Shown here piece after piece: positions 4,962 to 29,454 of a stretch of DNA of 51,253 bases (position 1 is the first letter of the stretch; each line of letters opens with the position of its first letter). The notes below the pieces were generated by a model. That model was not told the DNA's origin, did no database searches, and saw only the letters and a program-made list of their open reading frames with translations. The position numbers and the translations under genes were made by a program. The DNA is from a virus. The DNA is taken from the IMG/VR virus record IMGVR_UViG_3300031603_000005, positions 1 through 51,253 of that record. The stretch is one strand, 5' to 3'.

Positions 4962-4975
4962 TTTAAAACCTTTTA

Positions 4976-6316
4976 TTAAGCGTAATTGTTACTTGAACAA
5001 TTCTCAAAACGGTTATACTCACCTTTAAATCTTAAAAATATAGTACCAGTACCACCGTTTCTGTGTTTATCAATATTTATTTCGGCTATCCCCTTATCCT
5101 GTGACTCTTCATCATAAAACTCATCCCGGTAAATAAATATCAAAATATCAGTGTCATGCTCAATTGATGCAGACTCCCTTAAATCTGACCTGATAGGACG
5201 TTTATTTTTCCTTTTCCGTGGGTCCCTGTTAAGTTGAGATAGCTGTATAATTGGAATATCTAAATCTTTAGCAGTTCTTTTGATTGACCTTGAAACGTAA
5301 GCAATTTCCTGTTCTCTGTTTGATTTTCCCTGACATTCAACCAACTGGAGATAGTCAATTACCCCTAGGCACAAACCCCCTTCGACATTTCTATGTTGAT
5401 ACTTCATCTCATGTATCATTTGATCGATTGATACCACTGAGTCATTCATCAATATATTACTTTTAGAAATCTTACTAGCGGCCTTATATACATCGTCAGA
5501 CTCTCTTTGGCTCAATTTCCCATTCATATAATTCGTGGCGTCAACCTTTCCGGATGAACAAATAATCCTGTCTGATAATTGGAAGTTTGCCATTTCCCTT
5601 GAAAATATAATGGTTGCCCGTTTCTCTTCAGATCGTCTGTATATATTTTCAACAATATTTAAGGCGAATGTTGTTTTCCCTACCCCTGAGTCAGCGGCGA
5701 TTGTAATAACATTCGGAGCTATTAACCCAGATATTATCTTGTCTAAATCATAAAATCCAGTAGGGACCCCGACAGTTTCATATTTATTATCAACCCTGAC
5801 ATCCAATTTTAACATGCTCTCTCTTACTGCTGACTTTATATTTACGGTAGATTTTTTACTCATCACTTTTGATAAATCACTTATTTTTGTTTCGGCTTCA
5901 ATAAGTAAATCTGACAGTCCTTGCTCTGGGTCCCTTGCTTTTCTTCCAATATCACATGAAACCCTGATAAGTTCACGCAACATTGAATCTTCTTTGATCA
6001 ACTTTGAATAATAAACTATATTACCCGCAGATGGTGCTGATTCTGCCAAATCTGCAAGATATTGATACCCGCCTGTTTCATCTAGTTCACTTTTTGATTT
6101 AAGATTTGCGCCAATTGTAAGCTCATCTACAGGATCATCCTTATCAAATAACTCAATGATAGCTCTGTATATTCTTTGATGTGATTCATTATAGAAACAT
6201 TCTGCTGACAGTATTCCGGTTACTGATACGATTAAATCATTATCAATTATTAATGATCCTAATACCGCCTGTTCAGCTTCTATTTTGTGAGGGATTAAAC
6301 TCTGTTTATCAATCAT
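4976..6316 (-). CDS. dnaB: Replicative DNA helicase, DnaB family
   Basis: This hexameric 5'-3' helicase unwinds the phage fork. The N-terminal DnaB domain begins IPHKIEAEQAVLGSL. The RecA-like core has GVPTGF at about 183, Walker A GVGKT at 211-215, a Walker B region ending VIDYLQLV, and the SQLNR sensor. The length (446 aa) is normal. I start it at the ATG at 6316, which overlaps the stop of the replication protein gene as ATGA and has GGAG upstream. The longer frame to 6394 encodes an unrelated leader. Pairing with the initiator-like gene is the classic phage replication layout. Confidence 0.92.
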   Translation of the reverse strand: MIDKQSLIPHKIEAEQAVLGSLIIDNDLIVSVTGILSAECFYNESHQRIYRAIIELFDKDDPVDELTIGANLKSKSELDETGGYQYLADLAESAPSAGNIVYYSKLIKEDSMLRELIRVSCDIGRKARDPEQGLSDLLIEAETKISDLSKVMSKKSTVNIKSAVRESMLKLDVRVDNKYETVGVPTGFYDLDKIISGLIAPNVITIAADSGVGKTTFALNIVENIYRRSEEKRATIIFSREMANFQLSDRIICSSGKVDATNYMNGKLSQRESDDVYKAASKISKSNILMNDSVVSIDQMIHEMKYQHRNVEGGLCLGVIDYLQLVECQGKSNREQEIAYVSRSIKRTAKDLDIPIIQLSQLNRDPRKRKNKRPIRSDLRESASIEHDTDILIFIYRDEFYDEESQDKGIAEINIDKHRNGGTGTIFLRFKGEYNRFENCSSNNYA

Positions 6317-7098
6317 AATTTGAACTTCTCCGCTGTTTTTTGTGCTCTTCTTTGAGCTTGCGCTTTTCCATCGTCCTGAGTGACTCCACTGCAATTTAAA
6401 AATATCGTTGTGAAATGTTCCCTTAGTTTGTTAGGTGATCTCAAATTAGGAATCCATGAAAATTTATCTGTCTCATTAATTGGGTCATGAGCATAATCTA
6501 TTACTTTCCTAATATCGTCTTTGTTCCTTTTATCGATTCTAAGTATCTTGTCAATTTCTGAGCTCCAACTTTGAAAATTAGGTTTTTTATTATTAGGGTC
6601 CGATTTTAAAAGAACACTAAAAAGGTATTTTGCTATTTTCATTTCAAGCGACTCGTCAGAAAATTTATTTTCAGACTTAGGGCTATTGTTTAATTCTTCT
6701 TTCTTCTTTCTTTCTTTCTTGTTAGTGTTCACTCGTTGTTCACTCGTTGTTCGTTCGTTGTTCACTCGTTGTTCACTTGTCTGGTAGTTATCCCAATTAA
6801 GCACCGTGACTATTCGGCTCTGGCGGTTTGTTCGTTGTTCGATCATGTGGCACTTTTCAAAAAACTTTAGCGATCTTTGTATTTTACTTTCGTTTATTTT
6901 TAAGTCAGCACTTAGTTTTTTTCTACCTGTTATTAATTCACCTGGGTTAAGTGTTATTTCGTCCCCTCCCCAATTAACATTGTATGGAAACTTTGTTGCT
7001 TTTATAAGGAGATGTACCCATAAATGAACCATTTCTGAATCCTTGTATATTGAACTTTTGTCTATTTTTTCATACAGTTTAATCCATCTATCACCCAT
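6313..7098 (-). CDS. Phage replication initiator / replisome organizer-like protein
   Basis: The N-terminal 100 residues form a winged-helix domain typical of phage replisome organizers (MGDRWIKLYEKIDKSSIY, then KLSADLKINESKIQRSLKFF). Residues about 108-135 are a low-complexity linker with repeated SEQRVNNERT units, followed by a Lys/Glu run. The C-terminal domain ends near the DnaB gene. Its role is to bind the origin and load DnaB. The linker is encoded by 11-bp DNA iterons that may themselves be the origin. The ATGA overlap couples it to dnaB. Confidence 0.75.
   Translation of the reverse strand: MGDRWIKLYEKIDKSSIYKDSEMVHLWVHLLIKATKFPYNVNWGGDEITLNPGELITGRKKLSADLKINESKIQRSLKFFEKCHMIEQRTNRQSRIVTVLNWDNYQTSEQRVNNERTTSEQRVNTNKKERKKKEELNNSPKSENKFSDESLEMKIAKYLFSVLLKSDPNNKKPNFQSWSSEIDKILRIDKRNKDDIRKVIDYAHDPINETDKFSWIPNLRSPNKLREHFTTIFLNCSGVTQDDGKAQAQRRAQKTAEKFKL
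6694..6720. repeat. 27-nt pure polypyrimidine tract (plus strand)
   Basis: All 27 bases are T or C on the plus strand, with TTC/TTTC units; the minus strand is all purine. It lies beside the iteron block, within the replication protein gene, where it encodes the Lys/Glu linker. Such tracts can unwind or form triplex structures. Confidence 0.8.
6730..6773. repeat. Four 11-bp tandem iterons inside the replication gene
   Basis: CACTCGTTGTT occurs at 6730-6740, 6741-6751 and 6763-6773, with a two-base variant at 6752-6762 and a decayed partial copy after 6774. The 11-bp period is close to one DNA turn, so bound proteins would line up on one face. As in lambda O, iterons within the initiator gene are a plausible replication origin. 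That role is inferred. Confidence 0.7.
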
Positions 7099-7107
7099 GA
7101 CAACCCC

Positions 7108-7233
7108 TTATTTATTCTTTTCTTTTCTGGGGATGTCCCACTTAGGGTTTTTGCAATATGGGCAAGCCCTTGGCTTTGTTTCGATCCTTGGCGTCCATTC
7201 GTAACCACATCTTAAACATTTTAATTTTTTCAT
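7108..7233 (-). CDS. Tiny zinc-ribbon protein (41 aa)
   Basis: A 41-residue protein consisting of one zinc ribbon, with CLRCGYEW at residues 6-13 and CPYCKNPKW at 24-32. This is the standard small phage zinc-ribbon pattern. It is the first gene after the promoter at 7348-7376 and immediately precedes the replication protein gene. It could bind nucleic acid or a host polymerase. Function unknown. Confidence 0.7.
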   Translation of the reverse strand: MKKLKCLRCGYEWTPRIETKPRACPYCKNPKWDIPRKEKNK

Positions 7234-7347
7234 GCTTTCTATTTAAACCTTTAATTACTGTTTTAGTTAATAGATGTAATGTCTATTTTGAATAACAACT
7301 TTTAACATTGACCTGACTGAAAGTCGGTTTGTTGTGTTGTTATCATG

Positions 7348-7376
7348 ATTATCATTAAAAAATATAATAAAGTCAA
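7348..7376 (-). promoter_or_regulatory. Predicted sigma70-type promoter for the replication genes
   Basis: Minus-strand TTGACT (7376-7371), a 17-base spacer, and GATAAT (7353-7348). It sits in a 167-bp gap upstream of the zinc-ribbon and replication genes. The 8-bp palindrome ATCATGAT overlaps the -10, and a GACT-GAA-AGTC hairpin lies downstream; either could be an operator. Confidence 0.65.
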
Positions 7377-7400
7377 GCCCAAATCCAAACTTTATTCAAA

Positions 7401-7700
7401 TCAACCCCACATTCCATAAAATTCATACAGATCGATATTTAAACAGGTTTCTTTTTCAAAATCATCTTTGCCATCGTCTATTCGTTGCATCGTTTTACCG
7501 CTGCATAAATTATGATAAGCCCCGAAATTAAACCTTACTGGTTGGTTTACTTCCCAAATATCTGAATCAGTGTAGTTACCGACTAGTTCAGGGACTTTCC
7601 CGATATACCGTACGCAAGTAACTATTTTACCATAATTCTCCTTAACAACACCACCAACAATAACAGCTAGGCAACCAGGTTCTAAATTTGATCTCTTCAT
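7401..7700 (-). CDS. Hypothetical SH3/KOW-like protein (99 aa)
   Basis: The first 40 residues (GCLAVIVGGVVKENYGKIVTC) match the look of a KOW or SH3-like barrel with the hydrophobic-Gly pattern such domains show. The remainder has two conserved-looking cysteines and an aromatic C-terminus. It is the last gene before the replication promoter. A nucleic-acid or protein-binding role is a guess from the fold. Confidence 0.55.
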   Translation of the reverse strand: MKRSNLEPGCLAVIVGGVVKENYGKIVTCVRYIGKVPELVGNYTDSDIWEVNQPVRFNFGAYHNLCSGKTMQRIDDGKDDFEKETCLNIDLYEFYGMWG

Positions 7701-7831
7701 TTTTTACCCGCATTAAAGTTTTTTCAATTACTATCACATATATCACAATCAAAATTCATCGTTTTATCCTTTTCTGAATAGTCTATTGTCATATTTTAAC
7801 CTGTTTTAAATTAACTTTTAAAATATATTAT
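7701..7831 (-). other. AT-rich 131-bp gap with a possible 22-aa micro-ORF
   Basis: The gap contains a frame from ATG at 7792 to TGA at 7724, whose 22-residue product ends in a single CDICDSN knuckle. No good ribosome site precedes it. I see no clear promoter or terminator. Confidence 0.3.
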
Positions 7832-8050
7832 TCAAACGCTATCTTTCAAAAATAAATAAACACATTCTGATATATACCAGGAATCCATCCCCTGCGCCTC
7901 TAGATCTGCTAAAAAAGATTTATAGGTAGTCTTTGTGTAATTAACACTCTTTTCAATATAACGCCCGTAAAACTGCCTTAAAGACGTTCTTTCATCTGCC
8001 AGTATATTTTTAAATTCTTCAATTAAACCGCTGTTTACTTGTTTATTCAT
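7832..8050 (-). CDS. Small helical protein (72 aa)
   Basis: The ATG at 8050 overlaps the stop of the previous gene as ATGA and is preceded by a GAG site, which favours it over a start at 8089. The product is predicted to be helical, with aromatic-rich repeats (FYGRYIEKSVNYTKTTYKSFL). Its pattern resembles the product of 12936-13124, and both may be related helical proteins. Function unknown. Confidence 0.55.
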   Translation of the reverse strand: MNKQVNSGLIEEFKNILADERTSLRQFYGRYIEKSVNYTKTTYKSFLADLEAQGMDSWYISECVYLFLKDSV

Positions 8051-8250
8051 ATTTTGAATCTCAAGAGATCTCGGTGTTCTGGAAAACATTCAACATATGC
8101 GATTAAAGCCATGTTCCATGCGCTTGCCTGGGCTGAATATTTATAAGAAACTGAAAAATCGTGGTTTAATTCCATTTTGTACGAAGACGCTGATGAATTA
8201 AACACCAACCTTGCTATATCATTGATTTTATCTTTCGTTTTGTCTTTCAT
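8047..8250 (-). CDS. Hypothetical protein (67 aa)
   Basis: A small mixed alpha/beta protein with a basic N-terminus (MKDKTKDKINDIARLVF) and an Ala-rich helix (SAWNMALIAYVECF). The ribosome site is weak. It is coupled by ATGA to the next gene. No family recognised. Confidence 0.5.
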   Translation of the reverse strand: MKDKTKDKINDIARLVFNSSASSYKMELNHDFSVSYKYSAQASAWNMALIAYVECFPEHRDLLRFKI

Positions 8251-8289
8251 AATTTTTTATTCATTTTAGATATAAATTAAATTGTTTAT

Positions 8290-8487
8290 TCAAAATTTGG
8301 TAAAACAATATTTGCATGCAGCGGGGATACTATAATGTCCTGAAATATTTACTCTATCCCCAAGGAAAACATGTGGGTCCTGTTTCTCGAAATCAGAATA
8401 TTTCCTGTATTTTCCGCAATATTGACACCGGAAGTTTCCGTTTTTATCACGAATTGACAATTCCTGCATGTATGATAATTTGCTCAT
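8290..8487 (-). CDS. Small zinc-finger protein (65 aa)
   Basis: Two paired cysteines, CQYCGKYR at about residues 21-28 and CKYCFTKF at the very C-terminus, give a four-cysteine zinc site. The ATG at 8487 overlaps the previous stop. The same two-knuckle layout occurs in its upstream neighbour, so the two may be a diverged pair. Confidence 0.6.
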   Translation of the reverse strand: MSKLSYMQELSIRDKNGNFRCQYCGKYRKYSDFEKQDPHVFLGDRVNISGHYSIPAACKYCFTKF

Positions 8488-8834
8488 AGTTTCTTCCGGT
8501 TAGATTTCTTCCAATCGTCATTCAGATCATACGGGTTAATCCTTTTCGGCAACGCCATGAATTCAGCAAAAGTTCCATTAATTAAGACATCTTTCATCTT
8601 GTCCATCGGGATCGGCTTTGATGTTTTTCTCTTGTCAACTTCGACAGGAATGTAAGGACTAGACTGACTGTTATTTTTAATTTTTTGACAGACTTTGCAA
8701 TATCCGGGCAGTCCTCTTGCTGTTTTAGTCCCAGGAGGTTTAAGCCAAATGTCAAACCATCCCTTACATTCCGGGCACCACTTTTGCCAGTGCAGATTAT
8801 TGACCATGATTGATTTTTTTGCTGGTTCTGTCAT
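8484..8834 (-). CDS. Zinc-finger protein (about 116 aa)
   Basis: A four-cysteine zinc site is formed by CPECKGWFDIW and CKVCQKIKN, followed by a basic linker and a C-terminal helical part (DVLINGTFAEFMALPKRINPYDL). The start is uncertain. An ATG at 8903 would overlap a plausible small gene in another frame. I prefer the ATG at 8834, close after GGAG. It probably binds nucleic acid. Unassigned. Confidence 0.55.
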   Translation of the reverse strand: MTEPAKKSIMVNNLHWQKWCPECKGWFDIWLKPPGTKTARGLPGYCKVCQKIKNNSQSSPYIPVEVDKRKTSKPIPMDKMKDVLINGTFAEFMALPKRINPYDLNDDWKKSNRKKL

Positions 8835-8844
8835 AACTCCGAAT

Positions 8845-9000
8845 TCACTCAATTTTTCTCCTTTTTGGTATTCCGTGGATTCCATATTTTTTAAATTCAT
8901 CAATGTCTTTTTTTGTGGCGTTCCAGGCTATTAGTTTGGAATCAGGGAATAGTTTTTGTATTGCTTTGATTTGTTTTAATGAGTTTTTCAATTTTAACAC
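8845..9000 (-). CDS. Possible small basic protein (51 aa, GTG start)
   Basis: A frame from GTG at 9000 to TGA at 8845 encodes a Lys-rich product containing KAIQKLFPDSKLIAWN and a C-terminal YGIHGIPKRRK. The composition looks protein-like and it fills an otherwise empty gap, but no ribosome site is visible and the start codon is non-ATG. Confidence 0.35.
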   Translation of the reverse strand: MLKLKNSLKQIKAIQKLFPDSKLIAWNATKKDIDEFKKYGIHGIPKRRKIE

Positions 9001-9009
9001 TCAATTATA

Positions 9010-9204
9010 TTATTTTTTGTTCTCAGGAATGTGAACACTTTTAAATTCAATTTCATCGTTTCGATTAAATAAATAAGCTGCGCCGCAAGACGTGCATTGC
9101 CATTTCATATAAGCCAATTTGCCGTCCATAAAAATTAAATCATTTTCAGTGTCTTCGAGTGCAAAATTATTGCAGTTTGGGCAGAAACTTAAAGCGTCTT
9201 TCAT
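9010..9204 (-). CDS. Small zinc-ribbon protein (64 aa)
   Basis: A classic four-cysteine ribbon, with CPNCNN at residue 8 and CTSCGAAYLF near 37, connected by an acidic loop. The C-terminus is charged. It probably contacts nucleic acid or an RNA polymerase subunit; the exact partner is unknown. It is one of a run of small zinc proteins at 8.3-9.6 kb. Confidence 0.65.
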   Translation of the reverse strand: MKDALSFCPNCNNFALEDTENDLIFMDGKLAYMKWQCTSCGAAYLFNRNDEIEFKSVHIPENKK

Positions 9205-13847: not shown

Positions 13848-14111
13848 TTAATTATTATTTAAAAATCCTTTTTTTATATTTGCAATGTGCATTCTAACAG
13901 CCCTTTCCTTTGATTTTTTATCCATTAGAGGATTTACGGAAACGGAACAACCATATTGACATGAACCGGGACCCCATTTTGTCAGTATCATTATATGCCC
14001 AAAATCATTAGTTTCTATAGAATGAAATGGGTTAAATGCTTCAATTTTACCTTCTTTGCTTATTTTTTCAAATAAGTCATTGACCTGATCTATTATTGAT
14101 TTTTCATTCAT
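13848..14111 (-). CDS. Hypothetical protein (87 aa)
   Basis: A small protein with a helical N-terminus (IDQVNDLFEKISKEG) and a beta-like middle with two cysteines (SCQYGCSVSVNP). The C-terminus is basic. The gene overlaps its upstream neighbour by eight bases. No family is recognised. Confidence 0.5.
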   Translation of the reverse strand: MNEKSIIDQVNDLFEKISKEGKIEAFNPFHSIETNDFGHIMILTKWGPGSCQYGCSVSVNPLMDKKSKERAVRMHIANIKKGFLNNN

Positions 14112-14754: not shown

Positions 14755-15096
14755 TTACGGTTCTTTTAATCTCCTCCATCCTTTCCACTGCTCTTGAACT
14801 CGGTTTAAAAGGTCGCTCCTCTTTTCTGACGCCGATTTATCCAAGTTTTTAGGATCTTCAGACGAATATGAACCCCTGTTTTTGTTGTAGAATGATGCGC
14901 TGTATTCAGCGTAGTTTATCATCCCATCGACGGTCAATTTATCACCATCAACGGCCAAGACAATATCATTGCCGTTGATTAGCATAAAATAATAAACAGT
15001 CCTTACAGGTGCTTTTTTTTTGAACGGATTCAGTGAAAACCCGAAAGCACTGGACGAAAATATCAAAAGTGAAATTATTAAGATTAGTTTTTTCAT
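14755..15096 (-). CDS. Exported protein with Sec signal peptide (113 aa)
   Basis: Residues 1-19 are a signal peptide (KK, hydrophobic core ILIISLLIFSS, and AFG cleavage site). The mature part starts with a basic segment (NPFKKKAPV) and a possible beta domain, then a charged helical tail with a WKGWRRL end. It is coupled by ATGA to the barrel-like gene and lies downstream of the DGR. A periplasmic role such as superinfection exclusion or envelope change is possible; I cannot assign it. Confidence 0.6.
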   Translation of the reverse strand: MKKLILIISLLIFSSSAFGFSLNPFKKKAPVRTVYYFMLINGNDIVLAVDGDKLTVDGMINYAEYSASFYNKNRGSYSSEDPKNLDKSASEKRSDLLNRVQEQWKGWRRLKEP

Positions 15097-15752
15097 CTCA
15101 TGAAAGGGATTGAAAATGATAATGATACTGAGCTAAAAGAACCGTTTCCCTGGCTATCAACAATGTCCGGGTCTTCATCACCAAGTCTAGCATCGATAAA
15201 ACGATAAGACACAACAATTTTTTTCCCACCTTCCCATGGAACATCAAGAGAAATTCCTCTTTCTATAGCTGTATCAAGTCCGGGTTCATCTCCATTATCA
15301 TTCTCTAGCCAAATTTTACCAGCACCCCCATAAATTTTTAAAACAGGGGTTAAATAAATTCCAGCGCCACCCATCACCATTCTTGACTCCCAGCCTGGAT
15401 CATAAGCGGACCCTTCATAAGACGGTTTTTCTGTGTTTCTATTGCCATACCACCCATATACAAAAAACCCTGATGTCAGGTTATAAGTAATCTGTACGTC
15501 AAAGTTTTCAGTATAAAAATTATAATAACCGCCGCTTGGACTATCTAAAACATTTAACCTGAATTCAATATCTAAATCAGCCCTATTTACCTCTGCAAAT
15601 GGGGTACTTGCTGTAACCGGGCAATTATTTTTCAATGCCGGCTCTGCAACACTGAAAACAGTTTCTTTCATTTTCGTATAACCTGACCCAAAATCAGCAT
15701 AAGCAGAGACCGAGAGCATTAAAAAAACAACCAAAATAACGAGCTTTTTCAT
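15093..15752 (-). CDS. Outer-membrane beta-barrel-like protein (219 aa)
   Basis: A signal peptide is visible at residues 1-19, ending SVSAYA. The mature 200 residues show repeated alternating strands with Gly and aromatic residues (VQITYNLTSGFFVYGWYGN, VLKIYGGAGKIW) and a C-terminal strand (SVSLSFSIPFMR) near the usual aromatic end. This is the pattern of an 8-10-strand outer-membrane barrel. A barrel encoded by a phage may block receptors or alter the cell surface. Expression with the late block is implied by position. Confidence 0.6.
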   Translation of the reverse strand: MKKLVILVVFLMLSVSAYADFGSGYTKMKETVFSVAEPALKNNCPVTASTPFAEVNRADLDIEFRLNVLDSPSGGYYNFYTENFDVQITYNLTSGFFVYGWYGNRNTEKPSYEGSAYDPGWESRMVMGGAGIYLTPVLKIYGGAGKIWLENDNGDEPGLDTAIERGISLDVPWEGGKKIVVSYRFIDARLGDEDPDIVDSQGNGSFSSVSLSFSIPFMR

Positions 15753-15813: not shown

Positions 15814-16836
15814 CTACTCAACTTTTATTTTCTGTTTAAACAATTCATTTAAAATTGATCTTGTAGAATTATAACCATTGCAATGCTTCGTGTACGCAAT
15901 AAACGTCATTACGTATGTCTTTAATTCTTTTAACATTAAGTTTTGTTTTCTAAGCCGTTTAAACCGCTTTTTAGCTCTTCTCATATTCCTTTTTCTTGGC
16001 AATATGTGAGTTGGCCAAATTCGATAACCGCAAAAATCTACCCCTCGGTTGTCTTGAAATATTTGTGTCTTACGGTTCATCGTAAGTTTTAATTCATCAT
16101 GCAAGAAATTTGTAATTTTTTCTAATGCAGATTTCAAATAGTCTTTTTCAGGGTGAATTAAAATAAAATCGTCCATATATCGTAAATAGTTTTTTACACC
16201 TAATTCATCTTTTACAAAATGGTCTAATTTATCCAAATAAATATTTGCAAACAATTGACTTGTTAGCGCACCTATAGGCAAACCAACTGTTCCCTCGCTG
16301 TTGTTATCCAGAATCTTATCTATAAGCCATAATGTAGACTTGTCACTTACTGTTCGTTTTATCAACCTTTTAAGAACAGTTATATCAATACTGTAAAAAT
16401 ACTGGCTGATGTCAGCTTTTAAAACGTAGTATCTGCCGTATTTTCTTTGCGTTGACCTAGTAAAGGCCTGGAGCTTTTTGACGGCTCCGATTGTTCCTTT
16501 GTTTTTTATACATGCATAAGAGTCATAAATGAATTTTTTTTCAAACATTGGCTCGATTACCTTAACTAATGCATGATGTACAACCCTGTCCCTGAAAGCA
16601 GGTGCTTTTATTAGCCTTTTTTTAGGATCAAAAACATAAAATTCCCTTTGTGGCGATGGAATATAGGTTTTCCAAATTAATTCATTTTGTATTTGTATCA
16701 AATTTTCTTCTAATTTATCCGTATACCGTAAAACCTCTGGTCTAAACCTCTTTCCTTTCCTCGCCCTTAAATAAGCATTGTGCAACTGTTCGTACCACAC
16801 AATTTCATTCCACAGATAATCATTTGTTTTAGGCAT
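15814..16836 (-). CDS. DGR reverse transcriptase
   Basis: This RT copies the template RNA with adenine-specific errors, and the cDNA replaces the variable repeat. Visible motifs (340-aa numbering): catalytic ADISQYFYSID at 141-151, the DGR-diagnostic IGALTSQ at 188-194, and YMDDF at 220-224. The length suits the family. The start is taken at ATG 16836, close after AAGGA; a GTG at 16866 has a worse site. Its upstream neighbours are the template repeat and Avd, a standard cassette order. Confidence 0.95.
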   Translation of the reverse strand: MPKTNDYLWNEIVWYEQLHNAYLRARKGKRFRPEVLRYTDKLEENLIQIQNELIWKTYIPSPQREFYVFDPKKRLIKAPAFRDRVVHHALVKVIEPMFEKKFIYDSYACIKNKGTIGAVKKLQAFTRSTQRKYGRYYVLKADISQYFYSIDITVLKRLIKRTVSDKSTLWLIDKILDNNSEGTVGLPIGALTSQLFANIYLDKLDHFVKDELGVKNYLRYMDDFILIHPEKDYLKSALEKITNFLHDELKLTMNRKTQIFQDNRGVDFCGYRIWPTHILPRKRNMRRAKKRFKRLRKQNLMLKELKTYVMTFIAYTKHCNGYNSTRSILNELFKQKIKVE

Positions 16837-16931
16837 CCCTTCCTTTGAAATACTCTTAAAATCCACCCTGGATTATAATTAAAGCCATTTTCCTTTTTAA
16901 GTACTTACCGCTTTAATTTATTTATATTTTA

Positions 16932-16945
16932 CCTTACCGGTAAGG
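16932..16945. repeat. 14-bp perfect palindrome in the DGR spacer
   Basis: CCTTACCGGTAAGG is a perfect palindrome between the template repeat and the RT gene, in the region that would be the spacer part of the DGR RNA. A CTTACCG half-copy lies about 20 bases away on the RT side. Confidence 0.8.
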
Positions 16946-17004
16946 ACTAAAAGCCTGACAAAAGTCACTGGATATGCATTCGTAAATCCATATCTCTATA
17001 TTGA

Positions 17005-17111
17005 TGTCACAGGCGAACCGGGACCCGATGTTGGTGTTCACATTCCACGGATAGTTGTTCAAGTTCACCATCCGAGAACCAGCATTCGCGCCATTGTTCC
17101 AGTTACCGCCG
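17005..17111 (-). repeat. DGR template repeat (TR)
   Basis: This 107-bp sequence is nearly identical to 17484-17590. On the minus strand it would encode a lectin-fold end rich in Asn, including GGNWNNGANAGSRMV. It has 26 adenines on that strand by hand count; 13 of them differ from the variable repeat. It lies between the avd stop and the RT gene. The transcript of this region is the DGR RNA template. Confidence 0.95.
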
Positions 17112-17119
17112 AAACGCTC

Positions 17120-17452
17120 TCAGCCCATTGTTTTGATCCATCCTCCTAAAATTTTACCTATCTCAAGCAATAATTTACTGCTGTGTTCGTAGCTCTTTTT
17201 TGATAGATATTTTCTATCGTGTGAAAATCTAATTAACATTCGTAATTCTTCAAGACAAATATCAATTTCATAAGCACCTTGTTTTTTCCTTTTGCTCTTG
17301 TTCGCCCTTATTGTAAGAGTGTGTAGTTTTAATATTGTGTTTTTTAATTCCGTGCATAATGCAAATTTTTCATATTTCGGAAACCTGTCGATTATCGGAA
17401 AGATGTATAGCATGAAATCGTAGACCTTTTGGTATAATACTAATTTTTGCAT
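17120..17452 (-). CDS. avd: DGR accessory variability determinant (Avd-like)
   Basis: Avd forms a pentameric four-helix bundle that binds the RT and the RNA. The protein is 110 residues, all helical, with a basic core segment (RANKSKRKKQGAYEI) and the typical end of alternating Leu and Lys. It begins with LVLYQKVYDFMLYIF, a usual Avd opening. The stop is nine bases before the template repeat. Confidence 0.85.
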   Translation of the reverse strand: MQKLVLYQKVYDFMLYIFPIIDRFPKYEKFALCTELKNTILKLHTLTIRANKSKRKKQGAYEIDICLEELRMLIRFSHDRKYLSKKSYEHSSKLLLEIGKILGGWIKTMG

Positions 17453-17475
17453 AATACAGACTTTCAGAAAACAGA

Positions 17476-18531
17476 TTACAGAGTGTCACAGGCGAACCGG
17501 GACCCGAAGTAGGTGAGCACAAGCCACGGATAGTAGTTCAAGAGCACCATCCGAGAACCAGCATTCGCGCCATCGCCCCAGCTACCGCCGGTTATAAATT
17601 GCCTAAGGCCTGTAGCGTTTGGAAGATATAGTTGACCTGTTTTCATTGATGGCATAACGTCATAATATGCCCATGTATCGGTGCCGTGAGCAATGGTATA
17701 TTCATCCACCCACTGGAAAACTTTTCTTGCACAATCTACGATACCGGAAAAACTAACAGCTAAATTAATATCTCCACATGTTCCACGATCTGACGTATTA
17801 CCTACGAATTCATCTCCTTGTGGATGTCCATGAGCACCCTGTAGCCATTCTGCGTGTGTTAATAGACGTGCATTTGACCGTTTTGCAAGTTCAACAAAAT
17901 TATACCCCGCAAGTCCTTCTGTTCCGGTTAGCGGCACCCCTCCAAAAACTGATTTACACGTTCCAGCTGTAACTGGATAACCATCCCCGGCCTTAACAAT
18001 AGCCTCGTCAACCGAGGCTAAATATATATATTGCCAATGATTTCCCACTTTCGCTAATCCTGATGGATCACAAATAGGTCTTTTTCCCGGCCTTAAATCC
18101 CAAATTGAATTTTCTAAAATACCTTCTGCAATGGTCGCTGCTGTCAAAACAGTCCGAGTCCGTCCGTAGTGAAAACCGGCTATCTTGCGGCTGTTGTCTG
18201 CTGTTATAGCGGCCCCGTCAGCGTTTGTGCCTGTCGGGTAAGTGCTATTTTTTGAATACATCAATTGAGCATTACTGGATTCAAGAGCGAGCGCATATAA
18301 TTTAATATCATCACCCACGGCCAAAGCGGTAAAAGAACTGTCCCGGTTTGCTGATGTTACCGGGTTAAAATCTGTCTGTGGCGCAATTCGAAAGCCTTTT
18401 GTAAAACCCCCGATGTTCACAGTGCATTCAGGTATATCAAGTGTGTCTCCGGTTCCTTTTTCGAAATCGCCGTCAGCTTCGAAATGACCGGGCATCCCGG
18501 CAATTAAAAGATATTCATTAAAATCACTCAT
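17476..18531 (-). CDS. DGR target protein with C-type-lectin-like domain (351 aa)
   Basis: A receptor-binding candidate whose last 35 residues are diversified. The N-terminal part reads like tail-fibre beta structure. From about residue 120 it has the DGR-target pattern (GFHYGRTRTV, SIWDLRPGKRP, LLTHAEWLQGAHGHP, FQWVDEY) and ends in GGSWGDGANAGSRMV with aromatic variants. This is the FGE/lectin fold used by phage Mtd and by TvpA. The gene lies directly after fibre-type genes and before avd. In BPP-1 such a protein sits at the tail tip. Confidence 0.9.
   Translation of the reverse strand: MSDFNEYLLIAGMPGHFEADGDFEKGTGDTLDIPECTVNIGGFTKGFRIAPQTDFNPVTSANRDSSFTALAVGDDIKLYALALESSNAQLMYSKNSTYPTGTNADGAAITADNSRKIAGFHYGRTRTVLTAATIAEGILENSIWDLRPGKRPICDPSGLAKVGNHWQYIYLASVDEAIVKAGDGYPVTAGTCKSVFGGVPLTGTEGLAGYNFVELAKRSNARLLTHAEWLQGAHGHPQGDEFVGNTSDRGTCGDINLAVSFSGIVDCARKVFQWVDEYTIAHGTDTWAYYDVMPSMKTGQLYLPNATGLRQFITGGSWGDGANAGSRMVLLNYYPWLVLTYFGSRFACDTL
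17484..17590 (-). repeat. DGR variable repeat (VR)
   Basis: The last 107 bp of the target gene. It differs from the template at 13 positions, all at template adenines on the coding strand, giving nine residue changes (N to S, G, D, L, Y, L, L, Y, and I to F). The final 20-odd coding-strand bases (GGGTCCCGGTTCGCCTGTGA) are identical in both and match the place of the IMH site. Confidence 0.95.
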
Positions 18532-18865: not shown

Positions 18866-19762
18866 TTATTGTGTTAGAATTTGCAAAGTATTTGAACCGC
18901 CCAATGGAGAATAAACAATGACAGAACTGACGGTCTTATATGATTGGATTCGAAACAAATGTTTTCCTGGCCCGGTCATAGTTGCAGCGTAGCTCGTTGT
19001 ATCAGAAGCTATTTCTATCGGTGTTGTACTCCATGTCCCTTCAGTCCAAAATCCAGTTTCAGTGTCCAGAGTGTCTTTTCTGTGCCAAATATGGAAACCG
19101 CCTTCATCTGTTGACTTATCAGTCCACGATAATGTTGAGTTGTAAACTGTTTCACTAATTGATAAAAGTTTTCCAGTCGCTTGAGTGATTGCGGCCGTCG
19201 CTGTCAAATTTGTTGGAATTAATGGCGGATCCTCTGGCAATGAAAAATATAATCCTGCTTGACGTTTCGCTACTGTCGTATTCCACTTGTAATCATTTTC
19301 TTTGTTAATCGGGTTTCTGTATGACCTTAATCCGTTCACCAAATCTGCAGCTGACATTATTATGAACTGATTTCCTTCAATCATCCATTTTCCAGAATCT
19401 GGACCAGTATACGGTGGAACATATAAAGAATGCATTGATGTTGTATAAGTCCCGTTTGCATTGAATGTTATTGTCTGAGTAGCTGAATAATACAATTCAG
19501 ACGAATGTAAAACCCATCCGGCCGGAACCGTTCCACCTAAACCAATTCTCGTCTCTACCGTCCAAGTCTTTCCTGCTACTTTTGACCCGTCCGGGAACCC
19601 AATGACACTCTGCTCGATAAACCATCTTTTGTAATTTTCTTCAGCTACTGTTGAAATATTACCCACTGAAACTTTTGAAAAAACATGTTCAGGTTCGTAA
19701 TCTGCTGAATATGCGAAAATTGGCAACAAAAAAGCAATTAATATAAGACTTAATCTTTTCAT
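18866..19762 (-). CDS. Exported protein with fibronectin III-like domain (298 aa)
   Basis: I start at ATG 19762, after GAGGGTG. The first 20 residues are a signal peptide ending in AYSA. The remainder holds a beta-rich N-terminal domain that includes an NGTYTTSMHSLYV segment, then a Thr-rich linker and a fibronectin-III-like domain with TLSWTDKSTDEGGFHIWHR and a C-terminal GPGKHLFRIQSY strand. A signal peptide is unusual for a virion protein, so it is more likely a host-surface or periplasmic product. It is surrounded by fibre genes. Confidence 0.65.
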   Translation of the reverse strand: MKRLSLILIAFLLPIFAYSADYEPEHVFSKVSVGNISTVAEENYKRWFIEQSVIGFPDGSKVAGKTWTVETRIGLGGTVPAGWVLHSSELYYSATQTITFNANGTYTTSMHSLYVPPYTGPDSGKWMIEGNQFIIMSAADLVNGLRSYRNPINKENDYKWNTTVAKRQAGLYFSLPEDPPLIPTNLTATAAITQATGKLLSISETVYNSTLSWTDKSTDEGGFHIWHRKDTLDTETGFWTEGTWSTTPIEIASDTTSYAATMTGPGKHLFRIQSYKTVSSVIVYSPLGGSNTLQILTQ

Positions 19763-19773
19763 ACACCCTCTTT

Positions 19774-19995
19774 TTATAAATATTTTGAGCAACCGATTAC
19801 AGCTTGCCCATAATTTGAATTACAATCCTGAACTTTTACCGTTTGAGTTGATGGTGCTTCCTGAACAGGTGGAGTCTCTTGAATTGGAGTCTCTTGAATT
19901 GGAGTCTCTTGAACCGGAGTTGACGTGCTGTTTTCCTCTTCTGCACATCCAAATAGGAAAACAGCTATGAAAATAATAAATAAATATTTTATCAC
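19774..19995 (-). CDS. Small lipoprotein with tandem TPIQE repeat (73 aa)
   Basis: Residues 1-17 are a lipoprotein signal with lipobox LFGC; the cysteine would be lipidated. The linker includes three copies of a 5-residue unit (TPIQE), encoded by a 15-bp repeat, and the C-terminus has two cysteines (QDCNSNYGQAVIGC). It overlaps its upstream neighbour by four bases. Prophage lipoproteins often block superinfection or alter the surface; this one is unassigned. Confidence 0.65.
   Translation of the reverse strand: MIKYLFIIFIAVFLFGCAEEENSTSTPVQETPIQETPIQETPPVQEAPSTQTVKVQDCNSNYGQAVIGCSKYL
19871..19915. repeat. 15-bp tandem repeat in the lipoprotein gene
   Basis: Three adjacent copies of GGAGTCTCTTGAATT (19871-19885, 19886-19900, 19901-19915, the last with two changes) encode the TPIQE units. 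Slippage could change copy number. Confidence 0.85.
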
Positions 19996-20636
19996 TTTGG
20001 AACCTTTAAAACTATTGTGTTATTGATGAACAATGTTTCGATAATGTCTCCGCTGGTTTCGTCTATGTCTTGAACTTCGACTAATACACCATTAAGCAAA
20101 TAAGAGCCACTGAAACTCGCGCCGTGCTCAACAGTTACAGATCCACGGATTATCAAGCCATGCGTAACCCCATTCAGTATCAACTTGCCGGTACTTGCCG
20201 TGATCCCGATATATCCAGAAACTTCGACAAGTGTCAAATCAAATGTATCAAGATTAATTGAGGCATCAGGGCTGTCCATTCCAATTTTAACTTGATTCGT
20301 CAGTGTTCTGGCCGCTGTTAGAACTACACCTGATACAAAAAGTAAATTATAACCGGCAAGTGAAGCGGCTACAAAATCAGTTTCATCGTTTGTTACTCTT
20401 GCCTCGGCTAGATTCCCGACTACAACATCTGGTTGTAGCTGCCTTGTGTTGTTTTCCAGGTATGTTGCCCAATCTGATGCCCCTTGAAATAAATAATTGT
20501 GTTCGCTAGTATTCGGGTTTGCTGATATTCCATACCCTGCCGTTTCTAAAGTTGTCGGCCTGACGAAACCTTCCCCCCGTCCCCAAAGTGGTTGCCTTGC
20601 AGGTGGATAAAGTAAATCATGTCTAGTTGTTTTCAT
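19992..20636 (-). CDS. Tail fibre/baseplate-like protein (214 aa)
   Basis: The protein has a Trp-Gly-Arg-rich start (WGRGEGFVRP) and a middle with repeated beta-strand and Asn/Ser-rich turns (SINLDTFDLTLVEVSGYIGI), consistent with a beta-helix or shaft fibre. It shares a base with the gene upstream and overlaps the lipoprotein gene. Its position after the baseplate I-like gene suggests a fibre or fibre-adaptor part. Confidence 0.55.
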   Translation of the reverse strand: MKTTRHDLLYPPARQPLWGRGEGFVRPTTLETAGYGISANPNTSEHNYLFQGASDWATYLENNTRQLQPDVVVGNLAEARVTNDETDFVAASLAGYNLLFVSGVVLTAARTLTNQVKIGMDSPDASINLDTFDLTLVEVSGYIGITASTGKLILNGVTHGLIIRGSVTVEHGASFSGSYLLNGVLVEVQDIDETSGDIIETLFINNTIVLKVPK

Positions 20637-21355
20637 TATGTTTTTAATGTTTTATACGTTCCAGAGCCATACCCGGCCCCGTCAGCGTCAGGGTTAGTGT
20701 CAAGATCATATTGGAAAATGGGAGTAAGAAATTTCTGCTTTTTGTAACTCGGTATAATTTCATCACCGAAAGAATAAGTTAAATATATTCCTAAATTGTA
20801 ACCGCCGGCGCTAGGGTCAGGGCTAGTGTCAAGGTCATACTGAAAAACCGGGAGCTCTAAAATTCCGTTAAAAATCCTTCCTGTTCTTCCGTATTTTGTA
20901 CCCGCCAATTCTCTCAAAACACCAGGGGGAACGATTGATTGATCAATTTTATCTGATGCAATAAATACAAAATCCCAAAAAGCACCGCTAACAAATTCAA
21001 TGGCCGATTTCCCGTCTTCAATTCCAAATAATTCAAGTATCCTGGCGAACCCGGCAAATGTTCCAGACCTGATTTGATTAAAGAATTTTTCATCTACTCT
21101 AACCCTAAATGACTCAAGTGTTTCAGCATCAAGCCTAACCAAAGACCCTTCTTGAGCAAGTAAGTCAAGGCTTTGAGATGTGCATTCTATCGCATTTCGT
21201 TCGTCTTCAAAAACCGGTGCTATTAGATCAAAAAAAGGACCGTAAATATCAGATAATGCATTGATTGACGCCTGAGTTTCATCACCCCGCAAATACTCTG
21301 GAACGTCATCAAATACTTTTTCTCTGAATATTCTTAGGTTTGTGTCATTAGGCAT
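20636..21355 (-). CDS. Baseplate protein, P2 gpI-like (239 aa)
   Basis: In P2-like tails, gpI lies at the baseplate wedge, next to J and the fibre. The start is taken at ATG 21355. The body includes QSLDLLAQEGSLVRLDAE and a helix-rich domain (FFNQIRSGTFAGFARILELF). Two copies of a PxFQYDLDT motif with Gly-rich tails (about residues 169-191 and 212-234) end the protein and may connect to the fibre. It overlaps baseplate J by eight bases. Confidence 0.65.
   Translation of the reverse strand: MPNDTNLRIFREKVFDDVPEYLRGDETQASINALSDIYGPFFDLIAPVFEDERNAIECTSQSLDLLAQEGSLVRLDAETLESFRVRVDEKFFNQIRSGTFAGFARILELFGIEDGKSAIEFVSGAFWDFVFIASDKIDQSIVPPGVLRELAGTKYGRTGRIFNGILELPVFQYDLDTSPDPSAGGYNLGIYLTYSFGDEIIPSYKKQKFLTPIFQYDLDTNPDADGAGYGSGTYKTLKT
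20654..20851. repeat. Duplicated 69-bp segment in the gpI-like gene
   Basis: The segments 20783-20851 and 20654-20722 encode 23-residue copies starting P(V/I)FQYDLDT, separated by 60 bp. The DNA similarity is high in the first half. It looks like a duplicated fibre-attachment motif. Confidence 0.65.
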
Positions 21356-22601
21356 AATTGATCTCAATCGCGCTTAAATTTGGTATTTCAAAACCTAATT
21401 GCATTGACCCGGTCGTAAACTCTGTCATTGTGTCTATTGTTAGATTATCGATGTCATTGATTAGTAGATCCCTGATTGTTCCAGTTATTGTTAATTTATA
21501 ATATAGCGTATTTGGCGTGAATTGAAAAATCAAACCATCGTAAAGTTCATTTTCACGCCTCATGAATTCCAAAACTTCGCTGATTGCAGTGGTTAATTGA
21601 GCTTCTGTTAATGTTGATGTAGCTTTTTGAACTACATCAAATATCCAGTTTACAGATTTTTCAGGAATCGCAACGGCGAAAGGAAAGTCATCAAGTCCAT
21701 GGTTCCCGGTTAGATCGTCCGGAATTGTCAACCCTCTCACTTGATAGGATTTTTCGTCTGCAATTTCTAAATTAATACTATCTATTATTGACGAGTTAGG
21801 AACCCCTGCTGGTGAAAGAATATAGATTTCAAAATGGCCGCCTCCGTATAAGTCCCTTACTAAATGAGATGGAAAATAATACTGTTCTGATGCTGCACTG
21901 TATCCGGTAACTGAATTAATCACAGTCTCATAAAAATCATCTTGAGCGTATCCCTTTGAGCGAAAATTAAGAAAAGCTCTGTTGATTAGGCTTTGATCCG
22001 ACTCCGTATCTCTGCCCGTTTGAGTTATCACCGTGTTTTCGGTTTCAGAAATAAAATCAGGTTCTGGCATGATTGTAAATTGGCCTTCTGACAAGTTATA
22101 TTCGTCGCCTGTTTCCTCGGCCTGGACTGGTCCCTCTTTTGTTGCTTCCCCGATTGCAAAAGTAATTGAATCAACTAAAAATGCTGATAATGTTGTGTCT
22201 CCGACAATGGCCTGGACTTCAAAACCTGAATCAATTGTTTCTTCTCCTGACGTGTCTGACCTTGTGAATGATTGAGTCTGGATTGTTTCTAATGCCTGAT
22301 TTCTTGAAACATCAAAATTCTTTTCAGCGATTATATCAACATAATTTCCTTCAGCTGTTCCCATGAATAGATTATAATATAATCTTTCACTGTTTGGAGT
22401 CGTTCGTTCCTTATCATCAATTTGGTCCATCATCCAAAGCATAAATTGAGCGTGAATTTTTGCAAATAGATTTCCTGCCACGGTTAATTCGCCACGATCA
22501 TTTACATAATTTTCACCCAGAGCCAAAAGATTCGGAAAAATAAACTTTTCAATTACTTCTTCTTCCGTATTCGGCCAGGATATTGTTGACTCTACTGTCA
22601 T
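21348..22601 (-). CDS. Baseplate assembly protein J (417 aa)
   Basis: Baseplate J (gp6-like wedge) proteins join the baseplate hub to the fibre. This protein has the length (417) and layout of the family: helical N-terminus with MLWMMDQID, a central domain with GRDTESDQSLINRAFLNF and AQDDFYETVINSVTGY, and a C-terminal domain for the wedge contact. The start overlaps the W-like gene by four bases. The neighbours W and I support the assignment. Confidence 0.8.
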   Translation of the reverse strand: MTVESTISWPNTEEEVIEKFIFPNLLALGENYVNDRGELTVAGNLFAKIHAQFMLWMMDQIDDKERTTPNSERLYYNLFMGTAEGNYVDIIAEKNFDVSRNQALETIQTQSFTRSDTSGEETIDSGFEVQAIVGDTTLSAFLVDSITFAIGEATKEGPVQAEETGDEYNLSEGQFTIMPEPDFISETENTVITQTGRDTESDQSLINRAFLNFRSKGYAQDDFYETVINSVTGYSAASEQYYFPSHLVRDLYGGGHFEIYILSPAGVPNSSIIDSINLEIADEKSYQVRGLTIPDDLTGNHGLDDFPFAVAIPEKSVNWIFDVVQKATSTLTEAQLTTAISEVLEFMRRENELYDGLIFQFTPNTLYYKLTITGTIRDLLINDIDNLTIDTMTEFTTGSMQLGFEIPNLSAIEINYA

Positions 22602-22950: not shown

Positions 22951-22981
22951 ATTATACAAGTGTTTAGTGTGTGGTTGTCAA
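22951..22981 (-). promoter_or_regulatory. Predicted late promoter (N19 type)
   Basis: Minus-strand TTGACA (22981-22976), 19-base spacer, TATAAT (22956-22951), then AAGG. The -35 lies on the stop codon of the tape-measure gene, and the -10 is six bases before the baseplate W-like start. It has the same layout as the sites at 33764, 44297 and 48297. Confidence 0.65.
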
Positions 22982-24540
22982 AAACCAACTAATGCCAGTC
23001 CAAAAACTTCTTGCTCTAGTGATTCATTATAAAATTCGTTGTTCCCGGTTAAAATGATATTAGTTTCTGATTTTCCACCGCCTGTTTGACCTGGAGTCAT
23101 TGGCACCGGTTCAGTTTTAATAGGCGTTTTTGTTACTTCCCCGAATTGCGCCGTTTTTGTTACTTCCCCGAATTGCGCTCCCATGGCTTCGGCTGCTGTA
23201 ATTCCCGGCGCTATTTCTCCATTTGTTACCAGTGCATTAGTCATATTCAACATGGCTGTCAATGTGTCAATAAACCCCCTTTTAGCTGACAAAAAAGGAT
23301 TGCCAAGATTTACCAAAAGCGTAGTCCATGCAGAATTAAGCAATGTTACAGAACCTTCCACATTGTCAATCTGCTCACGCATTACTTGATATGCTGCACC
23401 ACCTTGTCCAAGTCCAATTTGTTTGTTATATTTTTCAACCCTGGTTTGGACCTTTCCGAGTGCTGCCTCTTGCGCTAAGATTGCGATCTTGCCAAATTGA
23501 TACTGTTTAAATATCTTAGCTAATACGCTCGTCACTTGAGCGTTTCCCATTACTGCTTTTTTTGCGGAGGCTTCTGTTTGCTTCCCGTACTTGTCTTCTA
23601 TTTTTATCCTGTCAAGTCCCGCCGCCTTTCCAATTACTGATAGTGCTTTAATTGCGTCAATATTGCCTTGTGCGTTTACTATATCGCTTCTTTCTACTTT
23701 CAGGAGATCTCTTAATCTATCACCCTTCGCGCTTAATTCGCCTAATTTAGCAAGTGACACACCCAAAGACTTGATACCAGTACCAAAATCACTACCCTTT
23801 ATTCCAAAACCTGCCAGAGTACCGCCTAATGCTAGAAATTCACCCAAAGAACCACCAGCAAGCTTAAATGCCGCCGCCCCAACCTTCGCGCCCTCTGAAA
23901 GTTCCATTATGTCTGTGTTGCTTGTCCTTGATGCTTCTGCCAACATATTAGCCGCATCTGCTGACTGCCTAGCTTGTAGCCCAAATCCGGACATGATATT
24001 TGTTGTAAGGTCCGCCGCCGTTGCCAAATCTATTTGTTCAGCTCCAGCAATTGCCAATGTTGCCGCGACAGACTTCATTGTCGTTTTTGCATCCATCCCG
24101 GACTTAATCAGCATTCTTTGACCACTAGCCACTTGTACGGCTGTAAAAAATGCTAAATCACCAGATCCAGATAGGGCAAGCGCCTGCTTCCTCAACTGTG
24201 GAATCATGGCCTTATCAGTCATTGAAGACATGACAGCCTTAACCCTAGACATTGCTGTCTGTAGTTCTTGAGCTGGCTGTAAACCTGCATTGATCAAATC
24301 AAATGTTTTTTTGATCCCAAAACCAACGGCACCGATAGCACCAAGGCCAATCATAAAACTAGCGTTTGCCCTGCCTAATGCGGTTACCTTGTCACCTAAT
24401 CCTGATATACTGTTATGTGCGCTTGCTGCTGCGGATTTCGTGCCACTTGCAAAACTTTTTACACTATTTGATGCGGATTTAAGACCCGCCCCCATTAAAT
24501 TTTTTGTCTCTAAATATAACGCGGCGGTTTGTATTGACAT
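22978..24540 (-). CDS. Tail tape measure protein (520 aa)
   Basis: The tape measure sets the tail length. The N-terminal half is of the TP901 type, with hydrophobic helices (FMIGLGAIGAVGFGIKKTF), ALALSGSGDLAFFTAVQVAS and a helix-rich AADLTTNIMSGFGL segment. The C-terminal part is charged, and a 9-residue unit is repeated twice near residues 455-472. At 520 residues it is short for a contractile tail. It follows the frameshifted chaperone gene, as expected. Confidence 0.85.
   Translation of the reverse strand: MSIQTAALYLETKNLMGAGLKSASNSVKSFASGTKSAAASAHNSISGLGDKVTALGRANASFMIGLGAIGAVGFGIKKTFDLINAGLQPAQELQTAMSRVKAVMSSMTDKAMIPQLRKQALALSGSGDLAFFTAVQVASGQRMLIKSGMDAKTTMKSVAATLAIAGAEQIDLATAADLTTNIMSGFGLQARQSADAANMLAEASRTSNTDIMELSEGAKVGAAAFKLAGGSLGEFLALGGTLAGFGIKGSDFGTGIKSLGVSLAKLGELSAKGDRLRDLLKVERSDIVNAQGNIDAIKALSVIGKAAGLDRIKIEDKYGKQTEASAKKAVMGNAQVTSVLAKIFKQYQFGKIAILAQEAALGKVQTRVEKYNKQIGLGQGGAAYQVMREQIDNVEGSVTLLNSAWTTLLVNLGNPFLSAKRGFIDTLTAMLNMTNALVTNGEIAPGITAAEAMGAQFGEVTKTAQFGEVTKTPIKTEPVPMTPGQTGGGKSETNIILTGNNEFYNESLEQEVFGLALVGF
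23126..23179. repeat. 27-bp tandem duplication near the tape-measure C-terminus
   Basis: Two adjacent 27-bp copies (23126-23152 and 23153-23179), identical but for the last base, encode AQFGEVTKT-type units. The clean copy suggests a recent duplication. Confidence 0.85.
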
Positions 24541-29071: not shown

Positions 29072-29454
29072 GTGGTAGGGTCCCACCAAACAAATGGGTC
29101 AATTGTTTCCTCAACTTTTTCTTTCACCATCCCGACAGCACTATAAACCGTGTCTTTTAGCCCAGACTCTTCAAGAAAAACGCCCCATGCTTGTCCTTCA
29201 GATCCTAACCACCTGACGATATTAGCAGCATTTTCACCGAGGACATTTTCGACTATTTCATCCATGTCAATTTTTTGAATTGATACGTGTATCCCAAATG
29301 AAAATAATTGACCAATTATGAAAATAGAAACGAGTAAAATTATACTTCTTTTCCATTTTGAAAATATGAAATTCTGGTAAGTGTCTTTTTTGGGATAATT
29401 AACAGCCTCTTCAGCTGCTACTATCTCAACTGGTTCTTGAGATAAGACTGTCAT
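29065..29454 (-). CDS. Single-pass membrane protein (129 aa)
   Basis: A soluble N-terminus, a transmembrane helix at about residues 37-56 (SIILLVSIFIIGQLF), and a C-terminal acidic/amphipathic region ending WWDPTTW. It overlaps the patatin-like gene by 29 bases. A holin-like or spanin-like role in lysis is possible, since it lies with another membrane protein. Not proven. Confidence 0.55.
   Translation of the reverse strand: MTVLSQEPVEIVAAEEAVNYPKKDTYQNFIFSKWKRSIILLVSIFIIGQLFSFGIHVSIQKIDMDEIVENVLGENAANIVRWLGSEGQAWGVFLEESGLKDTVYSAVGMVKEKVEETIDPFVWWDPTTW

Follow-up and report, generated by a model that had tools for sequence, protein, structure and literature searches.

The 51,253-base IMG/VR virus record IMGVR_UViG_3300031603_000005 (positions 1 to 51,253, referred to here in its entirety as the window) carries a complete diversity-generating retroelement (DGR) that diversifies the tip of a phage receptor-binding tail protein. 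Directly behind the variable repeat (VR) is a phased array of CTG trinucleotides, termed here the ladder. The ladder is probably a multivalent mark of the target site that gives retrohoming its direction, a function judged here from sequence. With somewhat less assurance, it appears to be a general cis-element that makes the VR, and not the template repeat (TR), the recipient. As such it would have letters that differ by clade (YTG, ATT, TTA, CTT, CG), could replace the hairpin, and would be so far undescribed. Taken as a DGR, the cassette is a further representative of an already known type and not a new class.

The DGR cassette and its tail context

The components of the cassette are all on the minus strand, in the order target gene with VR, avd, TR, RT-14 RNA and reverse transcriptase (RT). 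The first-pass annotation had proposed a complete DGR with target/VR, avd, TR and RT in this order on one strand, and its coordinates and order are both correct. It made no mention of the RT-14 RNA, of the phased CTG array behind the VR or of the absence of the usual hairpin.

The RT gene (15814–16866) encodes a 350 aa protein that matches PHROG 1423 in a profile search (1.1e-128) and also Pfam RVT_1. Within the PDB it is closest to the DGR RT of 8ub7 (5.2e-54). The RT displays IGALTSQ at motif 4 and YMDD at motif 5, which is the (I/V/L)GxxxSQ and YxDD pattern that characterizes DGR RTs. Both IGALTSQ and YMDDF had been read from the sequence in the first-pass annotation, and the profile matches now add homology to DGR RTs. 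The avd gene (accessory variability determinant, 17120–17452) encodes a 110 aa protein that matches Pfam bAvd (1.1e-32) and PHROG 3206 (2.8e-31), with PDB matches to 4dwl (5e-4) and 8ub7_B (0.0036). Avd is a common but not universal accessory protein of DGRs. The spacer RNA between TR and RT (16876–17012) is an RT-14 RNA (Rfam RF02921) with a score of 56.8 bits against a gathering threshold of 48.1, and in locus L107 the RT-14 RNA has the same position, between TR and RT.

The TR (17005–17111) and the VR (17484–17590) align without gaps over 107 nt and differ at 13 positions. The TR has 26 adenines, many of them within AAC/AAT codons, and all 13 mismatches are at these adenines (hypergeometric p = 5.7e-10), i.e. 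6 A>T, 4 A>G and 3 A>C. The VR is at the 3′ end of the target gene and ends 8 nt ahead of the last base of the stop codon. Its last 24 nt (17507–17484) are identical to the TR and form an IMH-like core; VR-specific sequence begins just past this core, with the ladder. A 12-nt match to the TR core is also found at position 13963, which is the chance expectation of about 0.3 such matches per window.

A search of viral contigs and genome contigs with exact peptides of the target gave no near relative of the window's phage, nor was the TR/VR core DNA matched in viral contigs; DNA relatives were likewise not found, and a plasmid search was also empty. Related DGRs elsewhere were compared in 26 pairs whose TRs are at least 97% identical. 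Their VRs vary, with 375 of 404 VR differences on TR adenines, and the TRs of the same pairs show 23 differences in 3012 compared positions. The DGR family to which this element belongs is thus active as judged on the sequences of relatives. An invariant VR together with a TR mutated at positions other than adenine, which had been named beforehand as the sign against a DGR, is not what the relatives display.

The target gene (17476–18531) encodes an Mtd-like protein of 351 aa, a predicted receptor-binding protein of the tail whose C-terminal part has a C-type-lectin fold. Mtd proteins are trimers that sit at the tips of tail fibres and bind the receptor. The sequence matches Pfam mtd_2nd (8.1e-15) and PHROG 11262, a tail protein family (8.5e-37), and is 27–35% identical to BPP-1 Mtd and the YPCBV-1 target. 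Its C-terminus reads GGSW...SRMV...CDTL, in agreement with the GGSW...SRMV segment seen in the first pass. A structural model was made by AlphaFold2 from an alignment of 36 sequences (its own and related ones) and has a pLDDT of 87.4 and a pTM of 0.88. The five best PDB matches of the model by Foldseek are the Mtd variants 1yu0–1yu4 (E-value 5e-16 to 2e-15, TM 0.63–0.68). These are followed by formylglycine-generating enzymes and then by the variable protein TaqVP, all of which are relatives with the C-type-lectin fold. The target has both the domain organisation and the C-type-lectin fold of the Mtd family and is a real Mtd homologue. Its predicted receptor-binding role, previously drawn by analogy to BPP-1, therefore rests on homology, i.e. 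on the mtd_2nd match, the 27–35% identity and Mtd as the best PDB fold.

Tail genes are found upstream of the cassette, also on the minus strand. These encode a gpI-like tail protein (20636–21367; PHROG 1228 tail, 4e-11), a Baseplate_J/baseplate wedge protein (21348–22601; Pfam PF04865, 1.3e-17; PHROG 6, 1e-20) and a tape-measure-like protein (22978–24540; PhageMin_Tail, 1.6e-18; PHROG 991, 1e-31). The contractile tail assigned in the first pass is probable: the Baseplate_J, gpI-like and tape-measure proteins speak for it, however a tail sheath gene was not detected in the window by HMM searches with Pfam and PHROGs.

BPP-1 (mtd-avd-TR-brt) resembles the window in its one-strand order, adenine-only TR/VR differences, Avd, SQ-motif RT and Mtd-fold target, and has a spacer RNA in the equivalent place, which is RF03022 (Phage_DGR) in BPP-1 but RT-14 in the window. 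The RTs are 34% identical and the targets 28%. The best named match to the target (35%) is that of the DGR of Chromohalobacter phage YPCBV-1, in which baseplate genes, target, avd and RT are found in the identical order.

A phased CTG ladder behind the VR

Where the TR/VR homology ends, the VR side, unlike the TR side, continues with CTG-TAAT-CTG-TTTT-CTG-AAAGT-CTG (17457–17481, minus strand). The C residues of the four CTGs are at 17481, 17474, 17467 and 17459, which gives steps of 7, 7 and 8 nt. A phased-ladder site is defined here as one with at least four copies of one trinucleotide at steps of 7–8 nt, no more than 60 nt behind the VR, and none behind the TR; CTG at 7, 7, 8 is such a site, and the region behind the TR of the window has no ladder. 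It is the sole CTG 4-chain at 7–8 nt steps on either strand of the 51 kb, and when the 68-nt region was shuffled 20,000 times such a chain never arose. An extra CTG (17489–17491, minus strand, part of CTGTGAC) is in the TR-identical end of the VR and stands 10 nt ahead of the ladder. A 10-nt step is also found in BPP-1 (CTGTGACCAC-CTG). The first unit of the ladder overlaps the last codon and the stop codon of the target gene (CTG TAA) and the final unit ends 4 nt ahead of the avd ATG. The ladder thus shares its sequence with the end of the target gene (stop codon) and with the leader of avd, and therefore one function leaves room for another.

Other DGR loci were gathered by RT, target and pattern searches, and their TR/VR pairs were located by script. 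Genome searches with PHROG 1423 gave mostly non-DGR RTs, probably those of group II introns, and only loci with TR/VR pairs were kept. VR flanks more than 65–70% alike were removed as duplicates. The loci were picked by similarity and are thus not a random sample of DGRs, and the frequencies below are to be read accordingly.

In 91 deduplicated VRs, CTG-CTG pairs occur 0.92 times per VR at lag 7 and 0.62 times at lag 8. The comparable values at each of the two lags are 0.009 for pieces drawn at random from these loci and 0.000 on the TR side. When chains of any trinucleotide are counted, 44.0% of 134 deduplicated VRs show at least four units at 7/8 nt, compared with 0.3% of shuffled sequences, 0% on the TR side, at most 0.7% for step sets outside 6–9 nt and 0.4% of 1072 other gene ends. 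A general gene-end or composition effect is ruled out by the shuffles, the random pieces and the other gene ends. A motif-free, base-by-base autocorrelation also peaks at lags 7 and 8 (0.366 and 0.334 versus about 0.25) and is flat behind the TR.

The length of CTG chains is bimodal in 145 Avd-bearing VRs (0–1 units, n = 56; 2, n = 28; 3, n = 7; 4, n = 49; 5, n = 5), and behind the TRs of this set no chain is longer than 1. In chains of at least four CTGs the commonest steps are 7, 7, 8 (29/54). The IMG/VR Mtd-type loci L026, L029, L038 and L039 resemble the window, with targets 37–48% identical, a 7, 7, 8 CTG ladder and no hairpin, but these are on other contigs and have other linker letters. 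In comparisons of near relatives, which started from loci with intact ladders, CTG positions differ in 10.9% of cases and linker positions in 38.8%, and the units are thus conserved.

When 2.9 million viral contigs were scanned blind for the spaced pattern CTGTAATCTGNNNNCTGNNNNNCTG, 47 contigs matched, and in 33 of these a DGR component (RT, Avd, target or TR) is found no more than 4 kb away. Wherever a TR can be aligned, the matches sit directly behind the VR. A control pattern with the same letters and altered spacing matched 22 contigs, none of them with a DGR (0/22; Fisher 7e-9 versus the spaced pattern).

The ladder is also found at VRs remote from the cassette. Betaproteobacterial loci carry a second TR without a local VR, and a search of two betaproteobacterial genomes with these orphan TRs located VRs on other contigs or far off. 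Behind these remote VRs are GTG, CTG, TTG and ATG at steps of 7, 7, 7. Seven VRs without an adjacent avd bear a ladder (including L109 11795). The ladder is tied to the VR rather than to avd.

Clade-specific letters and relation to the hairpin

TG is the core of the ladder in Avd-bearing systems and is preceded by C in 240 of 344 units. A TG chain of at least four is present in 72 of 124 Avd-bearing VRs versus 0 of 63 Avd-less VRs (p 4e-18). About 40% of the Avd-bearing VRs are without a TG ladder of four, and in VRs with fewer than three TG units the 7/8 periodicity persists. The same steps are found with other letters, i.e. ATT (L273), CTT (L286), TTG (L274), ATG (L157) and, in Bacteroides phage F4 and L339, TTA.

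An Avd-less RT clade (55 deduplicated VRs) has no TG ladders and instead displays CG repeats at 7 nt. CG chains of at least four are present in 21.8% of these VRs, compared with 0% behind the TR and 0.9% in shuffled sequences; the ladder of this clade is weaker and its local background is CG-rich. RTs associated with CTG ladders of at least four have a median identity of 44%, down to 28%. The steps are thus kept in other lineages, in the Avd-less CG clade and between distant RTs, and therefore the pitch is general and the letters depend on the clade, YTG being used in Avd-bearing systems and CG in the Avd-less clade.

In BPP-1 a 21-bp IMH at the VR end, with five differences from the TR, sets the direction of transfer (PMC3240598), and a hairpin behind the IMH raises efficiency (PMC3240598; PMC12875486). 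At target sites of the BPP-1 type the IMH is distinct from the IMH* of the TR end. The GRNA hairpin is reported as nearly universal in phage DGRs, though not defining, and its distance from the VR is "quite flexible" (4–34 bp). The window has no inverted repeat that would correspond to a GC-rich 7–10 bp hairpin with a GRNA loop 4–34 bp behind the VR. The DNA fold behind the VR is weaker than that of shuffled sequences (z = +1.1), whereas that of BPP-1 is at -2.4. BPP-1, the sole DGR system that has been studied well, has a GC-rich GAAA-loop hairpin and at most a partial ladder, the window has a full four-unit CTG ladder and no hairpin, and the VR of YPCBV-1 is followed by a GGCA-loop hairpin but not by a CTG ladder. 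The ladder of the window stands in place of the missing GRNA hairpin.

Ladder and hairpin are combined in several ways in other loci. Of the 61 VRs in which three or more CTG units were counted, 27 have a GC-rich inverted repeat after the ladder, 8 have it before the ladder and 26, the one in the window included, have none. Four loci with a ladder only (L039, L044, L048, L231) show 10–16 differences in the VR, 0–1 in the TR and none in the next 60 nt behind the VR. Since the VRs differ and the 60-nt flank is unchanged, hairpin-free sites are in use and the ladder itself is left unaltered. Mini-hairpins of the CTG-N4-CTG type were also considered. Their outer bases can pair when the unit is CTG, ATT or TTA; with ATG, CTT or NTG units they do not, and therefore this reading is not general.

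Possible function of the ladder

In DGRs, RT-Avd copies the TR/spacer RNA into cDNA and makes errors at adenines, and this cDNA replaces the VR. The ladder would be the mark of the target site, a generalised form of the BPP-1 21-bp IMH directionality element. The 21-bp IMH in the BPP-1 VR reads CTG-N7-CTG-N4-TTG, and its second CTG is missing from the TR; on the simplest reading the BPP-1 IMH would be a short ladder and the full ladder the usual recipient mark. The DGR complex or a recruited factor would read the ladder several times, once per 7–8 nt unit, and the ladder would dock the complex at the 3′ edge of the VR, acting together with a hairpin where one is present and without it in the window's phage. 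The TR itself would be protected by it from overwriting. The letters of the reader would vary by DGR clade and the pitch would be fixed.

The presence of the ladder, its phase, its place on the VR side and its conservation are matters of observation. Its regular spacing suggests a reader, either multi-subunit or stepping, that makes contact several times over. One candidate is an Avd pentamer, with the target strand laid round the five-fold ring and one YTG per subunit at a mean step of 7.3 nt. The solved RT-Avd complexes in the PDB have five Avd chains per entry (45 chains, 9 entries), Mtd-type sites hold five CTGs (10, 7, 7, 8), and the restriction of TG ladders to Avd-bearing VRs given above is also in favor. 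However the Avd-less clade has a CG ladder of equal pitch, and the letters may track the RT rather than Avd; in this sample the presence of Avd is confounded with the RT clade. A pentamer reading of this kind is considered unlikely. Avd as the sole reader was dropped since the Avd-less clade shows the CG ladder, and therefore the RT, RT-RNA or a recruited factor is to be considered as reader.

It is similarly doubtful that the locus offers nothing new, being an ordinary DGR whose ladder is the known IMH or is already described somewhere. The BPP-1 IMH does occupy a similar place, and the hairpin/cruciform and IMH of Guo et al. 2011 (PMC3240598), which are needed for target choice in BPP-1, are like the ladder VR-specific and on the same side of the VR. 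That element, however, combines an inverted repeat with a sequence of 21 bp, whereas the ladder is a phased direct array found with, before, after or without a hairpin. The open-access DGR texts consulted give (GC)14, the 21-bp IMH, the GRNA hairpin, or no VR-flank motif; CTG or a phased repeat is not mentioned in these texts.

There is very little to be said for the ladder as a by-product, in which the mutagenic RT slips at the 3′ junction and leaves short tandem copies whose A-containing linkers are randomised. The A/T-rich linkers and the absence of A from the CTG core would fit. However the RNA behind the TR has no matching repeat, and a search there for a phased CAG complement gave no clear peak at lags 7 and 8 (12 and 6 pairs versus 1–19 at other lags). 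In addition, most pairs of near-identical DGRs whose VRs differ at 10–19 sites show 0–1 differences in the 60 nt that follow, and the pitch is held across RTs to 28% identity though the letters change. Least probable, and largely refuted, is a translation or mRNA element for avd, or a property of phage gene ends at large: the window's ladder is between the target stop and the avd start and avd follows the VR in most loci, however VRs away from avd, including those on other contigs, bear the ladder and the other gene ends are essentially without the chain.

The integration step of DGRs was called incompletely understood in 2026 (PMC12875486). It has long been asked how a DGR distinguishes the VR from the TR and which factor reads the target site, and a phased, clade-specific element renders VR/TR discrimination directly testable. 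The ladder would aid in finding remote target genes without a nearby RT and in annotating the real borders of VRs, and it would allow DGR target sites to be placed on chosen genes without the BPP-1 hairpin.

Loci with repeated DGR components

Four betaproteobacterial loci (L002, L013, L014 and L015) carry two consecutive DGR reverse transcriptases (RTs), each with its own Avd and template repeat (TR); in L002 the tandem double-RT region spans positions 6009–9086. The second TR of these loci is without a nearby variable repeat (VR), and a remote VR for it is present in both genomes searched (L343 and L344). Two viral contigs display a single TR that serves two VRs, which are at positions 4896–4995 and 11795–11894 of L109 and at 4181–4292 and 5236–5346 of L111. 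A CTG ladder of four copies is found behind all four of these VRs. At L036, L041, L047, L051 and L061 a GC-rich inverted repeat is located at the target stop codon and precedes the ladder rather than following it.

Genes around the DGR of the window

Several proteins with signal peptides, as judged by eye, are encoded on the minus strand at positions 18866–19995, in the stretch that separates the tail genes from the DGR, and at 14755–15752, directly behind the RT. One is lipoprotein-like, with 15-nt tandem repeats at 19870–19920. Such proteins beside the DGR are unusual for a tail module. Within the structural gene block, positions 29426–30343 (minus strand) show a weak match to Patatin-like phospholipase (1.4e-4, under the Pfam cut-off). 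The sequence GAACCGGGACCC (positions 13963–13981, within the open reading frame at 13848–14111) has 12 nt in common with the TR/VR end, a match that is to be expected by chance.

Reading frames of the TR and RT

At positions 17120–16950 (minus strand) of the window the avd frame stays open beyond the avd stop codon, across the TR and further (ERFGGNWNNGANAGSRMVNLNNYPWNVNTNIGSRFACD...); thus the TR is in frame with avd. Annotated RT genes of Pseudoalteromonas, Aeromonas and Vibrio phages (L012, 3749–5014; L255, 3234–4520; L256, 3249–4526) begin further upstream than the RT usually does. The L012 frame starts within the TR, giving a putative RT with a TR-encoded N-terminus, which may be an annotation artefact or a real fusion. 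The DGR RT of the crAss-like phage cr52_1 (L259, 4983–6005) has six in-frame stops under code 11, and these probably represent stop-codon recoding.
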